From Acidobacteriota bacterium (GTDB taxonomy: Bacteria; Acidobacteriota; Thermoanaerobaculia; Gp7-AA8), in contig QHVT01000014.1 of NCBI GenBank assembly GCA_003223645.1, positions 102,264 through 140,856 of the forward strand: a DNA stretch of 38,593 bases, read 5' to 3'. Positions 3 through 31,788 of this stretch are shown here, one piece after another. The notes under the pieces were generated by a model, which made no database searches, was not told where the DNA came from, and saw only the letters and a list, made by a program, of their open reading frames with translations. Within the stretch, counting starts at the first letter, position 1, and the number at the start of each line of letters is the position of its first letter. A program made the position numbers and the translations under genes.

Positions 3-503
3 GTCGCGGTCGTCCCGTTGAGCGCGGCGACGCGCGAGGACGCGATCGCGCAGCTCGCGCAGCGCCGCGCGAATTTCCATGGGATGAAGAGTCTCATGCG
101 CGTGCGCGCGACAAACGGAAAGACGACGCAGTCGTTCCGCGCGCAACTGATCGTGCACGACAACCAACGAATGGAGCTGATCGCGTACACGCCGGTCGGT
201 ACGACCGCACTGAAGATGAAGGCGAACGGCTCGCGGATCGAGAGCGATCCGGAAGTGACGCCGGAGGCGTTCGCATTTCTCCGCGACTCGGGCCTCACCC
301 CGGCAGAGATGGGAATGCTGGTCCTCGGGTTGCCGCCGCGCGACGATACGACGTGGACGTTCACCGCGGGCGGATTGGCGCGGGTCGACATCGGTGAAGT
401 CATGGCCGTTTTCGATCCGCCGGCGTTCCCAGCCAAACGCGTGACGATCTCGACGACGCGCGACCACATCGAGATCGAGCATTTGGAAGTGGTGTCGGAG
501 TGA
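3..503 (+). CDS. Outer-membrane lipoprotein-like protein (LolB/DUF4292-like), 5' truncated by window edge
   Basis: The reading frame is open from base 3, so the true start lies upstream of the window; the TTG at 18 is probably internal. The visible 166 or so residues show a LolA/LolB-like pattern: a helical start, then alternating beta strands (SLMRVRATNGKTTQSFRAQL, RMELIAYTPVGTTALKMKAN) and a hydrophobic short helix (EMGMLVLGLPP). Proteins of this type are usually lipoproteins that bind lipids or lipoprotein tails in the periplasm, but the signal peptide is not visible here. The stop codon overlaps the GTG start of ispE (GTGA at 500-503), suggesting translational coupling. The family assignment is by overall pattern only; LolB-like versus DUF4292 cannot be decided by eye. 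Confidence 0.6.
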   Translation, partial: VAVVPLSAATREDAIAQLAQRRANFHGMKSLMRVRATNGKTTQSFRAQLIVHDNQRMELIAYTPVGTTALKMKANGSRIESDPEVTPEAFAFLRDSGLTPAEMGMLVLGLPPRDDTTWTFTAGGLARVDIGEVMAVFDPPAFPAKRVTISTTRDHIEIEHLEVVSE

Positions 504-1312
504 TCGAAGTCCGTGCGCACGCGAAGATCAACTGGTCGCTGCGCATCACCGGAAAACGCGCCGACGGCTATCACAATCTCGAGACCGTCTTCCAGACGAT
601 CTCGCTGCACGACACGCTGATCTTCCGCGAGTCAGACGAGCTGTCGCTCACGTGCGACGACCCGTCGATTCCCGTCGACGAATCGAATCTAGTTCTCCGC
701 GCCGCGCGCGCTCTCGGAAAAACCGCGGCGATCGAATTGCGCAAACGCATTCCGGCCGGCGGCGGGTTGGGCGGCGGATCGTCGGACGCGGCCGCGACGC
801 TGCGCGCGCTCGGCGGCGATCGCGAGGATCTTCCCGAAATCGCGCTCTCCCTCGGATCGGATGTTCCGTTCCTTCTCGTCGGCGGCACCGCATACGCGAC
901 CGGCCGCGGCGAAGTTCTCACGCCGATGCCGCCGATCCAGGCGTCACTGCTGCTCGTGCTCCCGGCAGAGCGCGTGATGACGAAAGACGCGTTCGCGCGT
1001 CTCAAACATTATTCGGAACCGCTCGGCTACGATGCCTTTGTGGGTGCCGCTGCCCTCAGCGGCACCGCGAGCGCTGAGGCCAGCGGTCGCCACAACTTTA
1101 CGAACGATTTCGAAGAGCCGGTCTTCGCGATGCTGCCGCAACTGCGCGAATACAAGCAGCGCCTTCTCGACGCCGGCGCGACGTGGGCGGGGATGAGCGG
1201 ATCGGGATCGACGATCGCCGGACGCTTCGAAAGCGCCGCCGCACGGGACCGCGCGGCGGCGCACTTCGCGGATCTGCGCGTGGAGCGCGCGGAAACGATT
1301 ACGGGCGTTTAG
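500..1312 (+). CDS. ispE: 4-diphosphocytidyl-2-C-methyl-D-erythritol kinase
   Basis: IspE phosphorylates 4-diphosphocytidyl-methylerythritol with ATP in the non-mevalonate (MEP) isoprenoid pathway. This 270-residue protein has the GHMP-kinase features: N-terminal AKINWSLRITGKRADGYHNL, the glycine-rich ATP loop PAGGGLGGGSSDAAA, the SDVPF strand, the conserved NDFE segment and the C-terminal MSGSGSTIAG loop. The GTG start overlaps the upstream stop by four bases. Residues about 181-198 (VGAAALSGTASAEASGRH) are not part of the family core; they are encoded by an imperfect palindrome at 1040-1093, inserted in frame just before NFTNDFE. The gene converges on the downstream secreted-protein gene with a 14-base overlap of the 3' ends. 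Confidence 0.95.
   Translation: MIEVRAHAKINWSLRITGKRADGYHNLETVFQTISLHDTLIFRESDELSLTCDDPSIPVDESNLVLRAARALGKTAAIELRKRIPAGGGLGGGSSDAAATLRALGGDREDLPEIALSLGSDVPFLLVGGTAYATGRGEVLTPMPPIQASLLLVLPAERVMTKDAFARLKHYSEPLGYDAFVGAAALSGTASAEASGRHNFTNDFEEPVFAMLPQLREYKQRLLDAGATWAGMSGSGSTIAGRFESAAARDRAAAHFADLRVERAETITGV
1040..1093. repeat. Palindromic element inserted in frame in ispE
   Basis: Two 22-base arms (1040-1061 and 1072-1093) are inverted copies with about 18 of 22 positions matching, separated by a 10-base loop. The total of 54 bases equals 18 codons, and the ispE frame is kept. It encodes an Ala/Ser/Gly-rich insert directly before a conserved IspE motif, which suggests a tolerated surface-loop insertion. 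Confidence 0.75.
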
Positions 1313-9179: not shown

Positions 9180-9851
9180 GTGCTCGTTCATCCGGCCGAG
9201 GCGAGGAGACAGTTCCGCGAGTATGCGTCGGGAGAGATTACGAATGAGAATCTCGCCTGGGGCGCGCTGCTGATCGCGCTCGAAGACAATCCGCGCATCG
9301 ATCCGCATCACTACCTCAACGAGCTCGACGCGCTGGCATTGCGCGCGCTGCATCGCTGCTCGCGCAATGAACCCCCGATCTTCCGCCTCGGGCATCTGCA
9401 CGCCGAGGTGTTCGACGAGGCGGGATATCGCGGCGATGAAACGAACTACTACGACCCGCGCAATGCGTACCTGCATGAAGTGATCGAGCGCAAAGTCGGA
9501 CTGCCGATCACGCTCTCGATCATTTTTCTCCACGTCGCGGCGAAGCTCGGGCTCGCGGCGGCGGGCGTCGGATTGCCGGGGCACTACATCGTCAAAGTGC
9601 AGTTCGAATTGAACGAGGTCTACGTCGATCCGTTCAACGAAGGCTCGACGATGACGATGATGGAGATCGAGAAGCTGCTGCATCAGATCAGCGACGGCAC
9701 GATCGAGCTCACCAGCGATCACCTCCGCGCCTGGAGCGGCCGGCAGACGCTGCACCGCGTCCTCGGCAACCTGCAGAGCATGTGGATGCGCACCGGCGAT
9801 CCGCGCAAAGCCGCCGCCGCGCGCGAGCGGATGGAGATCCTCGGCGCATGA
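9180..9851 (+). CDS. SirB1-like transglutaminase-fold protein
   Basis: The 223-residue product, from GTG 9180, matches the SirB1/Transglut_core2 group: YLHEVIERKVGLPITLSIIF, AAAGVGLPGHYIVKVQF and VYVDPFNEGSTMTMMEIEKL are its typical core. The usual transglutaminase Cys is not at the expected position, as is normal for this group (the LPITLS site), so catalysis is doubtful; the His of GLPGHYIVK and Asp of VYVDPFN are kept. The C-terminal part (HRVLGNLQSMWMRTGDPRKA) is TPR-like. The stop overlaps the aroDE start (ATGA), so it leads the aroDE-trpE operon. Its role there is unknown. Confidence 0.85.
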   Translation: MLVHPAEARRQFREYASGEITNENLAWGALLIALEDNPRIDPHHYLNELDALALRALHRCSRNEPPIFRLGHLHAEVFDEAGYRGDETNYYDPRNAYLHEVIERKVGLPITLSIIFLHVAAKLGLAAAGVGLPGHYIVKVQFELNEVYVDPFNEGSTMTMMEIEKLLHQISDGTIELTSDHLRAWSGRQTLHRVLGNLQSMWMRTGDPRKAAAARERMEILGA

Positions 9852-11110
9852 GGCTCGTCGTCACCGTTTTTTCGATCGACGAGATTCGTCCGGACTACGA
9901 CACGGTCGAATTACGCGCGGAGAATTTGCCCGATCTCGATCTGCGCGCGCTGCGCGCTGCGACCGACAAGCCGATCATCCTCACGTATCGCGGCTCGCGC
10001 GCGCCGGACGTGCGTCGCGCGTTGGACGCGGGCATCGACTTCGTCGACGTCGAATGGCACGACGGAGTCGAGATCATCGCGCCCGAGCGAACCGTGCTCT
10101 CGCATCACGACTACGAAGGAATGCGCGACGTAGAGTCGATCTTCGCCGCGATGCGCGCGCGCAACTGCGCGTACACGAAGATCGCCGCAACGCCGCACAA
10201 CTTCGCCGACAACGAGCGACTGCTGCGTCTCTTGCCCGGAACCGTGATCGGCATGGGCGAGCGCGGCCTCTACTCGCGCATCCTCGCGCCGTTCCTCGGA
10301 TCGGAGCTCGTGTTCGTCGCCGGCAACGCGATCGCCGCGCCCGGTCAGCTCACGCTCGAGCGCGCGCTGGCGATTTACGGACGTGATGGAGTGGTGCGCG
10401 CCTCCGGCACGCCTTCGGGCGGGGGCGCGCCGGAGGCGCGCACCACTCGCGTATTCGCGATCCTCGGCAATCCCGCAGGACACAGCCTCTCGCCGACGGT
10501 TCACAACCGACTCTTCCGCGAGAAAGGCGTTCCCGGCGCGTACACGATCGCTTCGTTCGAAATGTTCGACGAGATCAAGGATGCGTTCCTGCGCGGCGAG
10601 CCGTGCGGCCTCAGTGTCACGACTCCGTTCAAAGAAGACGCGTTCAGGTTCGCGGAGAATGACGAGATGGGTGAGAACGCGCGACGCGCGCGTGCGGTGA
10701 ACACGCTCGTGAATGTTCGCGGGAGGATCATCGCGGACAACACGGACGTCGACGGATTCAAAGCGCTGTTACCGGAAGCGCGGAGTGCAGCGGTGTTAGG
10801 CGCAGGCGCCACCGCCCGCGCTGCCCTCGTCGCGCTCGAAAATGCGCGCATTCCAACAACCGTGTTCAATCGCACTGTGCACCCCGGCATGCAGCCACTC
10901 GACAAACTCGCAACGTTCGACGGCGATCTCATCATCAACACGCTCCCCGCGAACGTGGCACTTCCCATCCCGCCGTGCGACACGTACATTGAAGCGGCCT
11001 ACGGCGGCGCGCCGCGCGAAGTCGAGGCGCGAAAACGCATTGGAGGCATCGAGCTGCTGCACGCGCAAGCGGTGCGGCAGCATCAACTGTTCATGAAAGT
11101 GTTCGAATGA
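9848..11110 (+). CDS. aroDE: Bifunctional 3-dehydroquinate dehydratase (type I) / shikimate dehydrogenase
   Basis: This 420-residue fusion carries out two consecutive shikimate-pathway steps. The AroD half (about 1-178) has the catalytic His in LSHHDYEGM, the Schiff-base Lys in YTKIAATPHN and GMGERGLYSR. The AroE half (about 202-420) has GNPAGHSLSPTVHN, the Lys in VTTPFKEDAF, NTDVDGFKALL and the nucleotide loop VLGAGATARAAL. AroDE fusions are known in plants and some bacteria. The linker is largely made of a 60-base palindromic insertion (residues about 181-201). The ATG overlaps the upstream stop and the gene's own stop overlaps trpE, implying one operon. Confidence 0.95.
   Translation: MRLVVTVFSIDEIRPDYDTVELRAENLPDLDLRALRAATDKPIILTYRGSRAPDVRRALDAGIDFVDVEWHDGVEIIAPERTVLSHHDYEGMRDVESIFAAMRARNCAYTKIAATPHNFADNERLLRLLPGTVIGMGERGLYSRILAPFLGSELVFVAGNAIAAPGQLTLERALAIYGRDGVVRASGTPSGGGAPEARTTRVFAILGNPAGHSLSPTVHNRLFREKGVPGAYTIASFEMFDEIKDAFLRGEPCGLSVTTPFKEDAFRFAENDEMGENARRARAVNTLVNVRGRIIADNTDVDGFKALLPEARSAAVLGAGATARAALVALENARIPTTVFNRTVHPGMQPLDKLATFDGDLIINTLPANVALPIPPCDTYIEAAYGGAPREVEARKRIGGIELLHAQAVRQHQLFMKVFE
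10389..10448. repeat. 60-bp palindromic element, family A copy 1, in the AroD-AroE linker
   Basis: Arms 10389-10408 and 10429-10448 are perfect inverted 20-base copies around a 20-base loop. The total is 60 bases, or 20 codons, and the translation runs GVVRASG...GAPEARTT. The same element occurs at 19999-20058 and 29890-29952. It sits exactly at the junction of the two enzyme domains. Confidence 0.92.
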
Positions 11111-19441: not shown

Positions 19442-19445
19442 TACA

Positions 19446-20996
19446 ATGCCGCGCGTGGGCGCTGCTCGGGTCGCCATCGGAATCGTCGTGTTGACGACAC
19501 TGATTTCGCCTCTGCGCCGCGAGCTGTTTGCGGGCGACGAGACGAAGTACAGCCAGGTCGTGCGCGAGATGCGCGCCGGTGCGTTTTTTCTGCCCACGCT
19601 GGAGGGGAGCCCGTTTACGCACAAGCCGCCGCTGCACTTCTGGATCGTCGATCTGCTGACGTATCCGTTCGGCGTTTATTCGATCTGGCCATTCGTGATT
19701 CCGTCGCTGGTCGCGTTTGCGCTGCTCTTGTGGCTTCTCTGGAAAATCGAAGGACCGACGGCGGCGTTCGTCGCGGGGACGTCGCTGATGTTGTGGGGCT
19801 CGGCGCAGACCGCGCGGATGGACGTCGAGTTCACCGCGCTTCTCGTGTACGCGGGATGGATGCTGCAGCGCGCGTTCGATGGAGAGCGGACGCTCGTGCG
19901 CGCGGGAGTCGCGACCGGAGCCGCGGCGCTGATCAAAGGACCGATGGCGCCGGTGATCATTCTCTGTTTGTTTGGATTCGAGACGCTGCGGCGGCGTGGA
20001 GTGGTGCGCGCCTCCGGCGCCCGTTCGGGTGGGGGCGCGCCGGAGACGCGCACCACTCCACGCCACCACTACGTGCTCGCGATCATCGCGATGATCGGAA
20101 TCCCGCTCGCGTGGCTCGCCGCGGCGGTGGCGGTGGGAGGGCGCGAGTTCTTCCGCGAAGTGTTTTTCAAACAGACGGTGGGGCGGGCGGTGGGGTCGTG
20201 GGTGCATCAGTCGCCGCCGTGGTTTTACGTCGCGCGCGCGCCGATGACGCTCTTGCCCTGGTTCTTTCTCCTCATCGTCGCGATCGTCGCGGTCTACAAA
20301 CGCAACGACGAGCGCGCGAAGTTTTACGTCAGCTGGATCGCGGCGGTGATCGTGCCGTACTCGCTGCTGTCGTCGAAGCTCGACGTCTACATGATGGCGA
20401 TGGCTCCGCCTGCGGCTCTCGCGATCGCGCGGCTGCTGCAATCCGACGATGCGTTTTCGCGCTACGGAAAATTTGCGAATGCATTCATGGCTGTCATTTT
20501 TTTGACAATCGGCGTCGCCGGATTCTTCGTGAAGCGGCCGGAGATCGCGCTGTATTCGCTGCAGCCGCTGCTCGCGATTCTCTCGATCTTTTCGTTGATC
20601 GCGCTGGTCATCGCGCTTCGCTCGACGCTTGTCGCGTCCACGATCGCCGTCGGCTTCGTCGCCGTCGCAGCGCTGACGTACGCCGCAATCGCCCTCGTTC
20701 CGACAGCGAACGAGCTCGCGTCGACGAAGCCGCTGGTGCGCGCGCTCGCGCAGCAGAACGTGCCGGCCGAGGAGATTGCGCTCTATGTCACGCCGCACGT
20801 TTGGGTCCGCGGAATGCCGCTCGCGTTGAGCCGTGTGAATTACGTCGACGCGGAAGAGCTGCATGTCATCGCTCCGCCGCGTGTGATCGTCGCGCGGCGC
20901 AAGGACGCGGATCGGGTTAAAGACGTTCTCGCGCGCTACCAGCGCGTCGGCGAGCTGCAGATGATCGGAAAATGGTTCGATGTCTATCGACGATAA
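19446..20996 (+). CDS. Glycosyltransferase family 39-like membrane protein (ArnT-type)
   Basis: The 516-residue polytopic protein starts at ATG 19446; it shows the GT39/ArnT pattern: first-loop acidic motif ELFAGDETKYSQVVREMRAG, then LEGSPFTHKPPLHFWIVDL and ARMDVEFTALLVYAG, with many membrane segments. Such enzymes move a sugar from a polyprenyl-phosphate donor to lipid A, protein or another acceptor on the outer face of the inner membrane. Residues about 185-205 (GVVRASG...ETRTTP) are a palindromic insertion in a loop after LFGFETLRRR. The end overlaps the PAP2 gene by 17 bases; PAP2 could recycle the polyprenyl carrier, fitting a shared role. Confidence 0.85.
   Translation: MPRVGAARVAIGIVVLTTLISPLRRELFAGDETKYSQVVREMRAGAFFLPTLEGSPFTHKPPLHFWIVDLLTYPFGVYSIWPFVIPSLVAFALLLWLLWKIEGPTAAFVAGTSLMLWGSAQTARMDVEFTALLVYAGWMLQRAFDGERTLVRAGVATGAAALIKGPMAPVIILCLFGFETLRRRGVVRASGARSGGGAPETRTTPRHHYVLAIIAMIGIPLAWLAAAVAVGGREFFREVFFKQTVGRAVGSWVHQSPPWFYVARAPMTLLPWFFLLIVAIVAVYKRNDERAKFYVSWIAAVIVPYSLLSSKLDVYMMAMAPPAALAIARLLQSDDAFSRYGKFANAFMAVIFLTIGVAGFFVKRPEIALYSLQPLLAILSIFSLIALVIALRSTLVASTIAVGFVAVAALTYAAIALVPTANELASTKPLVRALAQQNVPAEEIALYVTPHVWVRGMPLALSRVNYVDAEELHVIAPPRVIVARRKDADRVKDVLARYQRVGELQMIGKWFDVYRR
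19999..20058. repeat. 60-bp palindromic element, family A copy 2, in the GT39 gene
   Basis: The core matches copy 1 in length and frame. Extended 24-base arms (19997-20020 and 20037-20060) differ at one position. The loop carries CGTTCGGGTGGGGGCGC. The translation GVVRASGARSGGGAPETRTT falls between predicted membrane segments. Confidence 0.92.
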
Positions 20997-21933
20997 GCGA
21001 CTCCCGTCGCGCGACGATAAGCGACTCCCGTCGCGCGACGATAAGCGACTCTCGTCGCGCGTCGCTAAACGCCGCTACGCCGCCGCGGCGTTCGTGACGC
21101 TGCTCGTGCTGTCGGTCTTCTGGCCATCGCCGATCGTCTCCGCGAACCGGCTGTGGTGGGGCCAACCCCTCGGCGTCGACGAGCTCTCATTTCTCGGCCG
21201 CGAAGCGCCGTCGTGGGACGTTGTCTTCTGGTTCTTGGCCGGACTGCTGTTGCTGGTCATCATCCAAAGTGCGGAAATCGTGGATGTTCGCGAGCCGCTG
21301 CGTCAATTGAAAGCGGTTCGCTTCGAACGACGCCTGTGGCCGCACGTGCTCATTGGACTCGCAGTCGGCGCGATCGCGACGACGCTGACGTGGCTGCTGC
21401 TCGACGTGCCGATGCTCGCGTGGGCGGAGGGAGTGCAATCCGATTTCACCGAGGACGTCATTCGCATCATGAATCGCCTCGGCGGCGGGATGAATCCGGT
21501 CCTCATCGTCGCGTTCTTCCTCGTCGCCGGAGTCGCGTACGCGGAACGGCGATGGGTTTCGTACGCCGTCGCGATGGCGCTCGCGGGACTCGTCGCCGGA
21601 ATCGGCGGACAGATCATCAAACAGCTCGTCGGCCGCGCGCGTCCGGAGCTTTGGCTCGGACCGTCGCACTACGCGCCGGGATCGTCGACCTCATTTCCGA
21701 GCGGACACACCGTCGGCGCGTTCGCGCTCGCGGGCGTGCTCGTGTTCGCGTCACGCAATCACGCGCTGCGCGTCGTCGCGCTGCTGCTCGCGATCGCGGT
21801 CGGCCTCTCGCGCATGCTCGCGTTTCGCCATTGGATGTCCGACGTCACCGCGTCCGCCGTCGTCGGCCTGCTCGCCGCGTGGATCGCCGTCTCCGTGATC
21901 CCGCTCACAAAAGTTTCCGAAGCGCGCCCGTAA
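20980..21933 (+). CDS. PAP2-family membrane phosphatase
   Basis: The 317-residue protein carries the three PAP2 motifs: KQLVGRARP, PSGHTVGAFAL and SRMLAFRHWMSDVTA, with the catalytic His residues in the last two. Several membrane segments surround them. PAP2 enzymes remove phosphate from lipid phosphates such as undecaprenyl diphosphate or phosphatidic acid. The N-terminus is unusual: three copies of an 8-residue repeat (DDKRLPSR) encoded by 24-base tandem repeats (20989-21060), giving a highly basic cytoplasmic lead before the first membrane segment. The start ATG 20980 is inside the GT39 gene, so translation is probably coupled; a shorter form starting after the repeats cannot be excluded. 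Confidence 0.9.
   Translation: MSIDDKRLPSRDDKRLPSRDDKRLSSRVAKRRYAAAAFVTLLVLSVFWPSPIVSANRLWWGQPLGVDELSFLGREAPSWDVVFWFLAGLLLLVIIQSAEIVDVREPLRQLKAVRFERRLWPHVLIGLAVGAIATTLTWLLLDVPMLAWAEGVQSDFTEDVIRIMNRLGGGMNPVLIVAFFLVAGVAYAERRWVSYAVAMALAGLVAGIGGQIIKQLVGRARPELWLGPSHYAPGSSTSFPSGHTVGAFALAGVLVFASRNHALRVVALLLAIAVGLSRMLAFRHWMSDVTASAVVGLLAAWIAVSVIPLTKVSEARP
20989..21060 (+). repeat. 24-bp tandem repeat, three copies, at the GT39-PAP2 junction
   Basis: Copies at 20989-21012, 21013-21036 and 21037-21060 are identical except one base in the third; a decayed partial fourth follows. The first copy holds the GT39 stop codon. In the PAP2 frame each unit reads DDKR-L-(P/S)-SR; in the GT39 frame each unit contains TAA. 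Unit length is a multiple of three, so copy-number change keeps the PAP2 frame. Confidence 0.95.
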
Positions 21934-29278: not shown

Positions 29279-30247
29279 CTACCTTTGTGCAACCAGCTTG
29301 CCGTCCTTCCAATAGACGACCTCGTCGGAAGTGACGGCAAACGCCTGCGGCGCAACGCCTTTGGCGATGATCGAGCTCTTCGATTTCGTAAAGCGATAGA
29401 GCGTGCCGCTGCTCGAGTCGTACGCGATCCAGATTTTGTCGCGGATGACGACACGGTCGACGCCGGTGGGAAATTGCGACGAGCGATTACCGAAGAGCCC
29501 GAGTCCAAGAAAACCGCGCAGAAATCCGCGCGCGACCGCTTGCAAGGTCGACTGCGTCCCCTCGGTGAGCCAGACGCGTTTTGCCGATGGATCCGCCACG
29601 GCGAGGATGCGCGCGGTGATCGCGGTGCCGCCGCCGGCGAAGGCGAGGTCGACCGGAACCGCGCCGACGTTGACCGTGCCGCTGACTTTCATCGACGCAA
29701 GATCGATCGTGCGGATCTTCGCCTCGCGCGGGAAGACGAGGTAGCCCGTGCGTCCGCCGATCTCGAAGTCGGACGCGAACGGCGCGACCTGCACGTTGCG
29801 GCCGCTTCCGATTTCCGTGAGCGTGCCTTTGGTGCGCGAATAAACGTACAGCGTGCCGTTGGATTCGCGCAAAAAGTCGCCCTGGAGCGGAGTGGTGCGC
29901 GCCTCCGGCGCGCCTGTGGGGGGCGGTGGCGCGCCGGAGGCGCGCACCACTCCCGCGTCGCGTGCGAGCACGTATAGTTTGTTGCCCACGAATGCGCCGC
30001 CGACCGGCGTCTCCGCCGTTTGCACGCGTGTCGTTTTTCCGGTGGCGAGGTCCACGATCACGGCTTCGTTGTTGAGCGCATCGAGCACCGCGATGCGATC
30101 GCGGCCGACGACGATCGACGTCGCGTTCTCGACGCCTTCGGCTGTCCATCCGCCGCGCAACTCGATGCGCCGATCGTGCGCGACGACCGCGCCTTTCGGC
30201 GTCGCCGCGACCACTTGCGCGAGGACGAGCGCGAGTGCAGGGATCAC
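29279..30247 (-). CDS. Secreted beta-propeller protein
   Basis: The 322-residue product starts at GTG 30247, overlapping the upstream stop (GTGA). A short hydrophobic N-terminus (PALALVLAQVVAATPKGAVV) may be a signal peptide. Repeated strands such as ATSIVVGRDRIAVLDALNNE, AVIVDLATGKTTRVQT, KIRTIDLASMKVSGTVNVGA, VPVDLAFAGGG and PQAFAVTSDEVVYWKDGKL fit a YncE/PQQ-like propeller. Residues about 99-119 are a family A palindromic insertion, placed between propeller strands. A binding or scaffold role is likely; no catalytic site is seen. Confidence 0.75.
   Translation of the reverse strand: MIPALALVLAQVVAATPKGAVVAHDRRIELRGGWTAEGVENATSIVVGRDRIAVLDALNNEAVIVDLATGKTTRVQTAETPVGGAFVGNKLYVLARDAGVVRASGAPPPPTGAPEARTTPLQGDFLRESNGTLYVYSRTKGTLTEIGSGRNVQVAPFASDFEIGGRTGYLVFPREAKIRTIDLASMKVSGTVNVGAVPVDLAFAGGGTAITARILAVADPSAKRVWLTEGTQSTLQAVARGFLRGFLGLGLFGNRSSQFPTGVDRVVIRDKIWIAYDSSSGTLYRFTKSKSSIIAKGVAPQAFAVTSDEVVYWKDGKLVAQR
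29890..29952. repeat. 63-bp palindromic element, family A copy 3, in the propeller gene
   Basis: Perfect inverted 20-base arms (29890-29909 and 29933-29952) are the same sequence as in copies 1 and 2; the loop is 23 bases, so the total is 21 codons. Read on the minus strand it gives GVVRASGAPPPPTGAPEART, in the same frame as the other copies. Confidence 0.92.
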
Positions 30248-31788
30248 GGCTGCACTCCGAGGGGCTCGAGGAGCAGCGCGTCGCGGTCGGCGCTGCGCGT
30301 GACGCCGAGGATGCGGTAGGTGAGGTGAGCGTTCGCGGGGAACGCGCCGGCGAAGATCGTCGGCTCGCTGAAGCGGAACGGCACGCCGTCGATCGTTCCC
30401 GACTCGAACGTCGTCTGATTGTTTGCGACCTGCGCGCTGTCGAAGACGACCGCGCTGGTGAACGTCGTTTGATCGAGCGCGACGCGCTGCTCGGGTGTGA
30501 GGCGCTCGAAGTTTTCGAGGAGCTGTCGCAGCTCGGTGCCCGTTGGTTTCGCGCTTGGCACTGCGACTGCGGATGTTTGTTCCGCTTCGCGTCGCAGCGT
30601 GCGCAGCGTTTCGTTCTGCGGGAACTTTGCGATCAGCGCGTCGAGCGTTTCGCGCGCGGCGCGCGTTTCGCCGCGCGACAGTTGCACGAGCGCGCGCCGT
30701 ACTGTCATCCCGAGCGTGAGCGAGGGACCTGGATGGGCGGTGTCACGCTGCCCCTCCCACCCAGGTCCCTCGCTCACGCTCGGGATGACAGTACGCAGGT
30801 AGCGCTGGTACTCGCGCACGAGTGTCATCGAGAACGGATTCGCCTCGAACGCTTCCGCGTAATGCCGCTCGCGCTCTGCGTCCGATTGCGAGAGCCGCGC
30901 GAGTGCCGCGAGCGCGGAGGCATCGTCGCTGCGCGCGTCGAGCACGCGCTGATACTGCGCCCGTGCGCGCTCGACGTCGCCGCGCTGTTCGTAGAGCGAA
31001 GCGAGGCGGAGCTGCGCTCGATTGAGGAGCGACACGTACGCTGCGACGTCGCCGCGCGCGGAGGAGTAGATCTCGAACGACTCCGTGCGCGCGGCTTCGC
31101 GTTTGAGCGCGTCGAATTTCGACGAGCGCAGCGACTCCGTCACCGTCACGAGCAATCGCTCCGCTTCGTCGATCTGGCCCGACTCGATGAGCGCGGATGC
31201 GAGCGCGTGCTGATAGAGCGCGACGTCGAGGAGCGTCTTCGCGAGCGCGACCGCGTTACGCGCGGCGCCAGCGGCTTTGAGCGGATGTCCGAGGATGCGC
31301 ATCGCGGACGAATACAAATTCCAGGTCTCGGCGTCGTCGCTCGCGTAGCGGATCGACTCTTCGAGCAGTTCGAACGCGCGCGACTCGCTGCCGAGCTTCG
31401 CCTGCGCCAGCGCGGCGTACGACGTCGCATTCGCGTATTGCGTGAGCTTCGAGTCGCGCCGCGCGTCGAGGCGCTCTTTCGCCGCGATCTCGTACGCCTT
31501 CATGTACTCCGCGCGCGCCAGCGACTGCTCGTTGCGCGACGCGCGCAAGTCGCCGAGGTTCAGGCGGCCGGAGAGCTGCGCCTCGAATGAATGAGACTGC
31601 GCGAGCTGCTTTTCCATCTGCGCGATCTCGAAGTCGGAGGCGATGCGCTGTTGCGCGAACGCAGGCACGGCGAGGAACACGAGCGCGAGCAGAACGACGG
31701 ATGGCGGATGGCGGATGGCTGATGGCAGAAGTATCTGTGGCTCTGCCATCTGCCATCCGCCATCCGCCATCGGCCGCAGGCCCCTCAT
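30244..31788 (-). CDS. Secreted TPR-repeat protein
   Basis: The 514-residue protein is mostly TPR-like helices: QLSGRLNLGDLRASRNEQSL, YAALAQAKLGSESRAFELLE, YQHALASALIESGQIDEAER, LASLYEQRGDVERARAQYQR. The ATG overlaps the VWA stop (ATGA at 31785-31788). Two palindromes lie inside. One (31700-31771) lies in the n-region of the signal peptide, so the protein reads MRGLRP, then about 24 element-encoded residues, then the core VVLLALVFLAVPAFAQQ. The other (30698-30795) inserts about 33 residues (PSVSEGPGWEGQ...GPSLTLGMT) between TPR-like segments. The C-terminal 90 residues look strand-rich. Probably a periplasmic scaffold. Confidence 0.82.
   Translation of the reverse strand: MRGLRPMADGGWQMAEPQILLPSAIRHPPSVVLLALVFLAVPAFAQQRIASDFEIAQMEKQLAQSHSFEAQLSGRLNLGDLRASRNEQSLARAEYMKAYEIAAKERLDARRDSKLTQYANATSYAALAQAKLGSESRAFELLEESIRYASDDAETWNLYSSAMRILGHPLKAAGAARNAVALAKTLLDVALYQHALASALIESGQIDEAERLLVTVTESLRSSKFDALKREAARTESFEIYSSARGDVAAYVSLLNRAQLRLASLYEQRGDVERARAQYQRVLDARSDDASALAALARLSQSDAERERHYAEAFEANPFSMTLVREYQRYLRTVIPSVSEGPGWEGQRDTAHPGPSLTLGMTVRRALVQLSRGETRAARETLDALIAKFPQNETLRTLRREAEQTSAVAVPSAKPTGTELRQLLENFERLTPEQRVALDQTTFTSAVVFDSAQVANNQTTFESGTIDGVPFRFSEPTIFAGAFPANAHLTYRILGVTRSADRDALLLEPLGVQP
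30698..30795. repeat. GTCATCCCGAGC-type palindrome with perfect 35-bp arms in the TPR gene
   Basis: Arms 30698-30732 and 30761-30795 are exact inverted copies over 35 bases, with a 28-base loop. Perfect arms suggest recent insertion or gene conversion. On the minus strand it is translated as VIPSVSEGPG...PGPSLTLGMT. The same element type lies between genes at 27269-27372. Confidence 0.95.
31700..31771. repeat. ATGGC-rich palindromic element, copy 2, in the TPR gene signal peptide
   Basis: GATGGCGGATGGCGGATGGC... (31700-31729) is an inverted match to 31742-31771 at 29 of 30 positions; the loop is 12 bases. The total of 72 bases equals 24 codons and keeps the frame between the ATGA-coupled start and the hydrophobic signal core. 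Confidence 0.9.

Follow-up and report, generated by a model that had tools for sequence, protein, structure and literature searches.

A 54-bp imperfect palindrome lying in frame within the ispE gene of an Acidobacteriota bacterium belongs to a dispersed repeat family (family B) built like a REPIN, and is probably translated as a tolerated insert of 18 residues. Short copies of this repeat are found mostly inside genes and in a single codon phase, longer ones mostly between genes. The explanation favored here, which seems likely if well short of certain, is that a short REPIN-type palindrome has spread recently, probably moved by a REP-associated tyrosine transposase (RAYT), and that copies in genes which keep the frame and encode a bland peptide have been tolerated and kept.

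The palindrome in ispE

Near the start of the window (the whole stretch of DNA analyzed, 38,593 nt), the ORF at 500-1312(+) scores 168.7 bits against the TIGR00154 ispE model (cut-off 138.7) and matches both the N and C domains of GHMP kinases, consistent with a 4-(cytidine 5'-diphospho)-2-C-methyl-D-erythritol kinase. From established knowledge of the pathway, the gene is expected to be essential. It is the one IspE-like gene found in the genome: a protein search gave seven matches, of which one is ispE, one a different GHMP-type protein (E 6.6e-6), and five are short, including element copies in other reading frames.

The palindrome (GTGG...CCAC) occupies 1040-1093 and is self-complementary at 38 of its 54 positions, a value reached in the window by only six 54-mer starts, this copy and those at 10392, 20002, 21008, 30720, and 31709. 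RNA folding of the element with short flanks (1034-1100) predicts, for either strand, an outer stem and two hairpins. The stem (1038-1095) pairs TTGTG at 1038-1042 with CACAA at 1091-1095, including the flanking T 1039 and A 1094; the first hairpin (1043-1066) pairs 1043-1052 with 1057-1066; and the second, inverted hairpin (1067-1090) is mismatched in this copy, whose two differences from the family consensus both fall in that half. The z score of the fold is -4.26 on the plus strand and -3.91 on the minus strand, and on neither strand was any of 200 shuffled sequences equally stable.

The ORF stays open across the palindrome, in agreement with the first-pass annotation, which had described an 18-codon palindrome that entered ispE in frame just before the NDFE segment. 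Residues 181-198 read VGAAALSGTASAEASGRH and are followed by NFTNDFE, in which N202 of the NDFE segment is invariant among 14 aligned sequences. The insert was absent from all of the IspE homologues compared (0 of 20 in one set and 0 of 13 in another, with some shared), so that its residues were not found conserved in IspE proteins whose DNA lacks the palindrome. The size of the gain needs qualification: the element does contribute 18 codons, but the same-genus orthologue (67% or 73% identity, depending on the comparison), which reads SEPIGRDDHASFADFTNDFEEPVF at this site, is just 14 residues shorter. Relatives differ in the length of the segment before NDFE, and without the insert this IspE would be shorter there than the relatives shown from its own taxonomic family; a few codons were thus probably lost when the element arrived or later.

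An AlphaFold model of IspE, made with 14 sequences, has a mean pLDDT of 92.5, and its best solved matches in Foldseek are IspE structures (TM about 0.8). The blocks with lowest confidence are 181-190 (71) and 191-200 (58), where two short helices are predicted. For the surface loop that the first-pass annotation had proposed to look for, the model is a partial test: the insert coincides with the least confident part of the model, but a plain loop would be too strong a description of what is modeled, at low confidence, as partly helical.

Copies and forms of family B

The search for more copies that the first-pass annotation suggested was productive. The left 27 nt of the element occur 63 times in the 6.38-Mb genome with at most three mismatches, 28 times in forward and 35 in reverse orientation and on many contigs, while the same 27 nt read backwards do not occur in it. 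Of 62 half-copies examined (one, C8:36267, was left out), 41 belong to elements of 54 bp, 3 to elements of 53 bp, and 15 to elements of 87-90 bp, with 3 lacking a recognizable right end. The long copies carry about 34 extra central bases relative to the short form. A census by left halves is biased, as long relatives with another left end exist. Two of these, at L133 14305-14397 and L151 11336-11431, are 93-96 bp long, have GTGGTGACCGCTG as their left end, are not inside genes, and were missed by it.

Copies are very uniform: 18 of the 41 54-bp elements are identical to the consensus, which is self-complementary at 42 of 54 positions, and none has more than three changes. The left half was found in 0 of 118 related genomes (at most three mismatches), and its exact sequence in no stretch of the viral contigs searched. 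Near-identical copies together with absence from relatives suggest a recent spread confined, among the genomes searched, to this lineage. Since no filled orthologous site was found in relatives (118 genomes for family B, 59 for the second family, A, considered below), the insertions cannot be dated by that route, and the orthologues are too distant for the empty site to be read base by base. The ends are constant, with T at position -1 in 43 of 44 short copies and A at +1 in all 44.

Position in genes and codon phase

Genes were called with a custom codon-usage caller, which gave coding fractions of 0.84-0.94 by stretch. By these calls, the 44 short copies (53-54 bp) divide into 38 intragenic, 2 edge, and 4 intergenic ones, and the 15 long copies (87-90 bp) into 2, 2, and 11 (Fisher p 5e-7 for short versus long). 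The predominantly extragenic position of the long form had not been part of the first-pass annotation. The exceptions, in L058 and L079, are 88-bp copies inside called genes. In an 838-kb sample drawn irrespective of the element, genes contained 8 of the 9 short copies and none of the 5 long ones; the loose-pattern search behind these counts gave 30 rows, of which 14 were counted as family B and 16 set aside as family C (see below) or chance, and the same pattern has two sites in 400 kb of a same-genus genome (G001).

All 35 intragenic 54-bp copies are in one codon phase (phase 0), although the 38 intragenic short copies are divided between orientations (21 and 17). Scoring by the flanks alone identified 27 54-bp copies between clearly coding sequences; 24 of them keep the frame, always in phase 0, and 3 do not. 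Phase 0 reads VGAAALSGTATAEGSGRH or VATAALSGRGAAEGSGTH depending on orientation, an Ala/Gly/Ser-rich peptide in either case. Phase 1 is open and rich in Trp, Pro, Leu, and Arg, and phase 2 is interrupted by a stop whichever way the element is oriented.

Host proteins

Of 36 frames containing family B, 30 were scanned against Pfam (one edge case, L042), IspE was scanned separately, and five were left out (L051, L057, L076, L082, and L097). The element falls within a single Pfam domain match in 12 of the 30 scanned proteins, and 5 have no recognized family. The domains concerned are those of the ornithine cyclodeaminase family, phosphoglucomutase domain II, a SAM methyltransferase, peptidase S46, type I phosphodiesterase, pantoate ligase, ATP-dependent DNA ligase, a histidine kinase ATPase domain, saccharopine dehydrogenase, an AMP-binding enzyme, a TonB receptor barrel, and FecR. 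The host genes are functionally unrelated.

For orthologue comparison, 83 proteins were searched against about 800 kb of G001. Seventeen rows spanned an element; ten of these, below 37% identity, were dropped as paralogue-level, and the other seven represent six genes with at least 48% identity (IspE appears twice). In all six, which include hosts of families A and B, the orthologue lacks the element. Net gains are 14, 13, 18, 20, and 16 residues in five of them, compared with inserts of 18-19; the sixth (L064) is misaligned at the insert.

Family A and other palindrome families

The ispE element differs in sequence from family A, as the first-pass annotation had noted, yet the two have a common architecture, a REP doublet, which that annotation had not described. 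Its view that more than one palindrome family enters genes in frame here also held, the examined copies of both A and B being mostly in frame. Three family A elements were mapped in the window. One (10391-10446, 56 bp, GTGG..CCAC) is in frame in ORF 9847-11110(+), which we take to be shikimate dehydrogenase-like, and a second (20001-20056, 56 bp) in ORF 19445-20996(+), presumably glycosyltransferase-like; the same-genus orthologues of both lack the element. The third (29892-29950, 59 bp) is in frame in ORF 29279-30247(-).

Half-matches to family A number 214 in the genome, and the family was found in 0 of 59 related genomes (at most two mismatches). At 40 loci fetched as the first-listed exact half-matches, hence not a random sample, there are 32 complete elements, 24 inside genes, 5 between, and 3 at edges. 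Phase 0 is used by 21 of the 24, which encode VVRASGxP...GAPEARTT or a variant of that peptide. Lengths of class 2 modulo 3 account for 18 of the 24 intragenic copies and 0 of the 5 intergenic ones (p 0.004; the 3 edge copies left out). A T follows the element in 30 of 32 copies.

A preference for genes is not general among the palindromes of this genome. Counts inside genes in the 838-kb sample are 6/11 for A, 8/11 for B, 7/28 for C, 4/14 for D, 5/18 for E, 7/30 for F, 1/23 for G, 1/34 for H, and 0/7 for J, so families C to F are intragenic in a minority of cases and G, H, and J hardly at all. The intragenic lengths of families C and E are not limited to one class modulo 3. Dispersed-repeat regions of at least 30 bp number 273 in the 838 kb here versus 3 in 400 kb of the same-genus genome, at an equal copy threshold applied to unequal amounts of DNA, which favors the larger sample.

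A candidate transposase and the origin of the insert

The genome, which is 97% complete, encodes one recognizable RAYT, a further point beyond the first-pass annotation (locus L009, frame 1396-1968; NF047646, 103 bits, cut-off 80); no second RAYT or Y1 match was found in it. Among 60 genomes searched, 47 have a Y1_Tnp match, including the present one; the same-genus genome does not. The gene is flanked (L009 1314-2195) by GTGG palindromes of family C, one upstream and three downstream, with no family B palindrome in the 3.3-kb locus. At its 3' end the transposase ORF runs into the first of the downstream copies (1879-1948), so that the repeat encodes the last residues of the protein.

In the favored explanation, the element consists of two inverted REP-like hairpins with GTGG tags that would have spread recently in this lineage, most likely moved in trans by the RAYT (TnpA-REP) as folded single-stranded DNA. 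The inserted DNA would have C|A at the end of each strand, and its arrival would often disturb a few target codons. Most insertions into genes would be lost, the survivors being those that keep the frame and the phase giving a small Ala/Gly/Ser-rich peptide, and such copies would be kept because the host protein tolerates the peptide. In IspE, the insert would be translated as residues 181-198 in a naturally length-variable segment before NDFE, with the enzyme presumably still active.

A REP-like element might instead have been moved by other means, either a transposase since lost or undetected or a replication or repair process, and this is a real possibility, though clearly the less probable one. 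It draws on the position of the only RAYT found, which adjoins family C and not B and so speaks against its moving B, and on the lack of a second RAYT or Y1 match in the genome. Set against this, families A, B, and C are alike in their GTGG tag and doublet design, and the terminal dinucleotides fit a TnpA-REP. Enzymes of this type have been reported to cut at CT, and one also at CA; altering the tag of a substrate to GTGG did not abolish cutting at CA but lowered its efficiency (PMC8266576). The terminal C|A of family B and C|T of family A would agree with these dinucleotides, which is suggestive only.

Tolerance by itself does not account for all of the genic excess. A random model in which 85% of the DNA is coding and all phase-0 insertions are tolerated predicts that 65% of the short copies that survive will be genic, and the 38 of 44 observed exceed this with p 0.0016 (0.014 at 88% coding and 0.05 at 90%). 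Three explanations offer themselves: quicker loss or remodeling of intergenic copies, a preference for genes as targets, or an advantage of in-frame copies. The excess hints at adaptation to genes or preferential insertion into them; it is conceivable, but on balance doubtful, that the frame-neutral short form of B has become adapted to life within proteins, with coding sequence as its principal niche, and that its 88-bp sibling occupies the gaps between genes. The same excess, being above the most permissive neutral expectation, could mean that genic insertions are favored for a useful hairpin or peptide, for example in tuning mRNA stability, but this is improbable given that the host genes have no common function, that both orientations are used, and that intragenic copies show 23 non-synonymous and 8 synonymous changes, which argues against selection at the peptide level. 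Purifying selection on the insert peptide is likewise unsupported by these changes.

That the message is read through the element, as tolerance of a peptide implies, is much the likelier reading of the codon-phase pattern. Its strong predicted RNA structure might invite ribosome skipping or excision from the message, leaving the element untranslated, but ribosome hopping needs no single codon phase, an untranslated element would have no need of a stop-free reading either, and in L050 and L061 53-bp copies lie in one open frame inside a single Pfam match spanning both flanks, where exact excision of 53 bases would break the frame. We consider this alternative very improbable. Least credible of all is the idea that the segment is an ordinary variable loop native to IspE and palindromic by chance. 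The repeat family in effect already refutes it: the segment is indeed length-variable among relatives, but these 54 bases are found again in dozens of unrelated genes, and the peptide is absent from the homologues compared.

Relationship to known elements

REPINs, which are doublets of REPs, were described as extragenic elements (PMC3116915). Those of Pseudomonas fluorescens SBW25, like the BIMEs, resemble family B in having an inverted pair of tagged hairpins, many copies, and a repeat-flanked RAYT in the genome (PMC3116915). Family B has a GTGG tag beside its hairpins, halves in inverted orientation, and a high dispersed copy number. It departs from REPINs as described there in that 38 of 44 short copies are in genes and the RAYT found is not flanked by B; of the long form, 11 of 15 copies lie between genes. 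With its mainly genic location, family B is better called REPIN-type than a classical REPIN.

GTGG is a reported variant of the GTAG-like REP tag, and the genomes described as richest in intragenic REPs are those of Opitutus terrae, with mostly GTGG as the GTAG-20 tag, and of Rickettsia conorii (PMC3733652). The GTAG/CGTC REPs of the Opitutus type include tagged palindromes and dimers inside ORFs, with GTGG in O. terrae (PMC3733652), and family B likewise has a tagged dimer wholly inside ORFs. In the text available, however, they are mostly intergenic, their inserts usually comprise 20-30 residues, and they come from other phyla; neither a single-phase rule nor a division into short and long forms appears in that part of the description (PMC3733652).

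Rickettsia palindromic elements (RPE) are also palindromes in frame in conserved protein genes; nearly half are intragenic in R. conorii, and an RPE-bearing guanylate kinase is reported to remain active (PMC2229807, PMC10969869). Family B shares their in-frame position (ispE and 12 of 30 scanned proteins) but not their length, 105-146 bp or about 150 bp as described versus 53-54 and 87-90 bp. The Correia/NEMIS elements of Neisseria offer a parallel to the two forms, an open 107-bp form being abundant in ORFs and a stop-bearing 155-bp form almost exclusively intergenic; as described, they are longer, have terminal inverted repeats and a target duplication, and are not REP doublets (PMC2229807). 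Each ingredient of family B therefore has precedent. What is new is a mainly intragenic, single-phase REPIN-like family in the Acidobacteriota; no mainly genic REPIN-type family in one phase in both orientations was found for this phylum in the portions of the open-licence literature searched.

In Rickettsia, palindromes lying in frame in genes prompted two questions: by what agent they are mobilized, and whether selfish DNA can supply proteins with new segments. The acidobacterial genome, 6.4 Mb in size, shows this phenomenon on a large scale and combines REP-type elements with a transposase gene of the matching class. The mostly genic short form and mostly extragenic long form provide a natural control, so that mobilizer, target choice, and protein-level filter could be tested in one system. 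Annotators should be aware that an Ala/Gly-rich insert in a genome of this kind can derive from a mobile element.

Other repeats

Several further repeats were seen in the window and elsewhere in the genome. A palindrome of the TGTCATCCCGAGCGTGAGCGAGGGACC type at 30698-30795 is in frame in a TPR-like ORF, 30244-31788(-), where it reads VIPSVSEGPGW...PGPSLTLGMT. Near the start of the same ORF, at 31695-31776, is an inverted array of GATGGC-type heptamers; in the 838-kb sample, 20 of 23 such arrays are intergenic. ORF 20980-21933(+) opens with DDKRLPSR repeats, encoded by three tandem copies of a 24-bp unit at 20988-21071. Short repeats of the CATTGCACTCGCGRCGAGGAAC and TTTTCATTTGCAACCGGCCTG types form tandem arrays in intergenic DNA at L134 7270-7836 and L136 658-1117.
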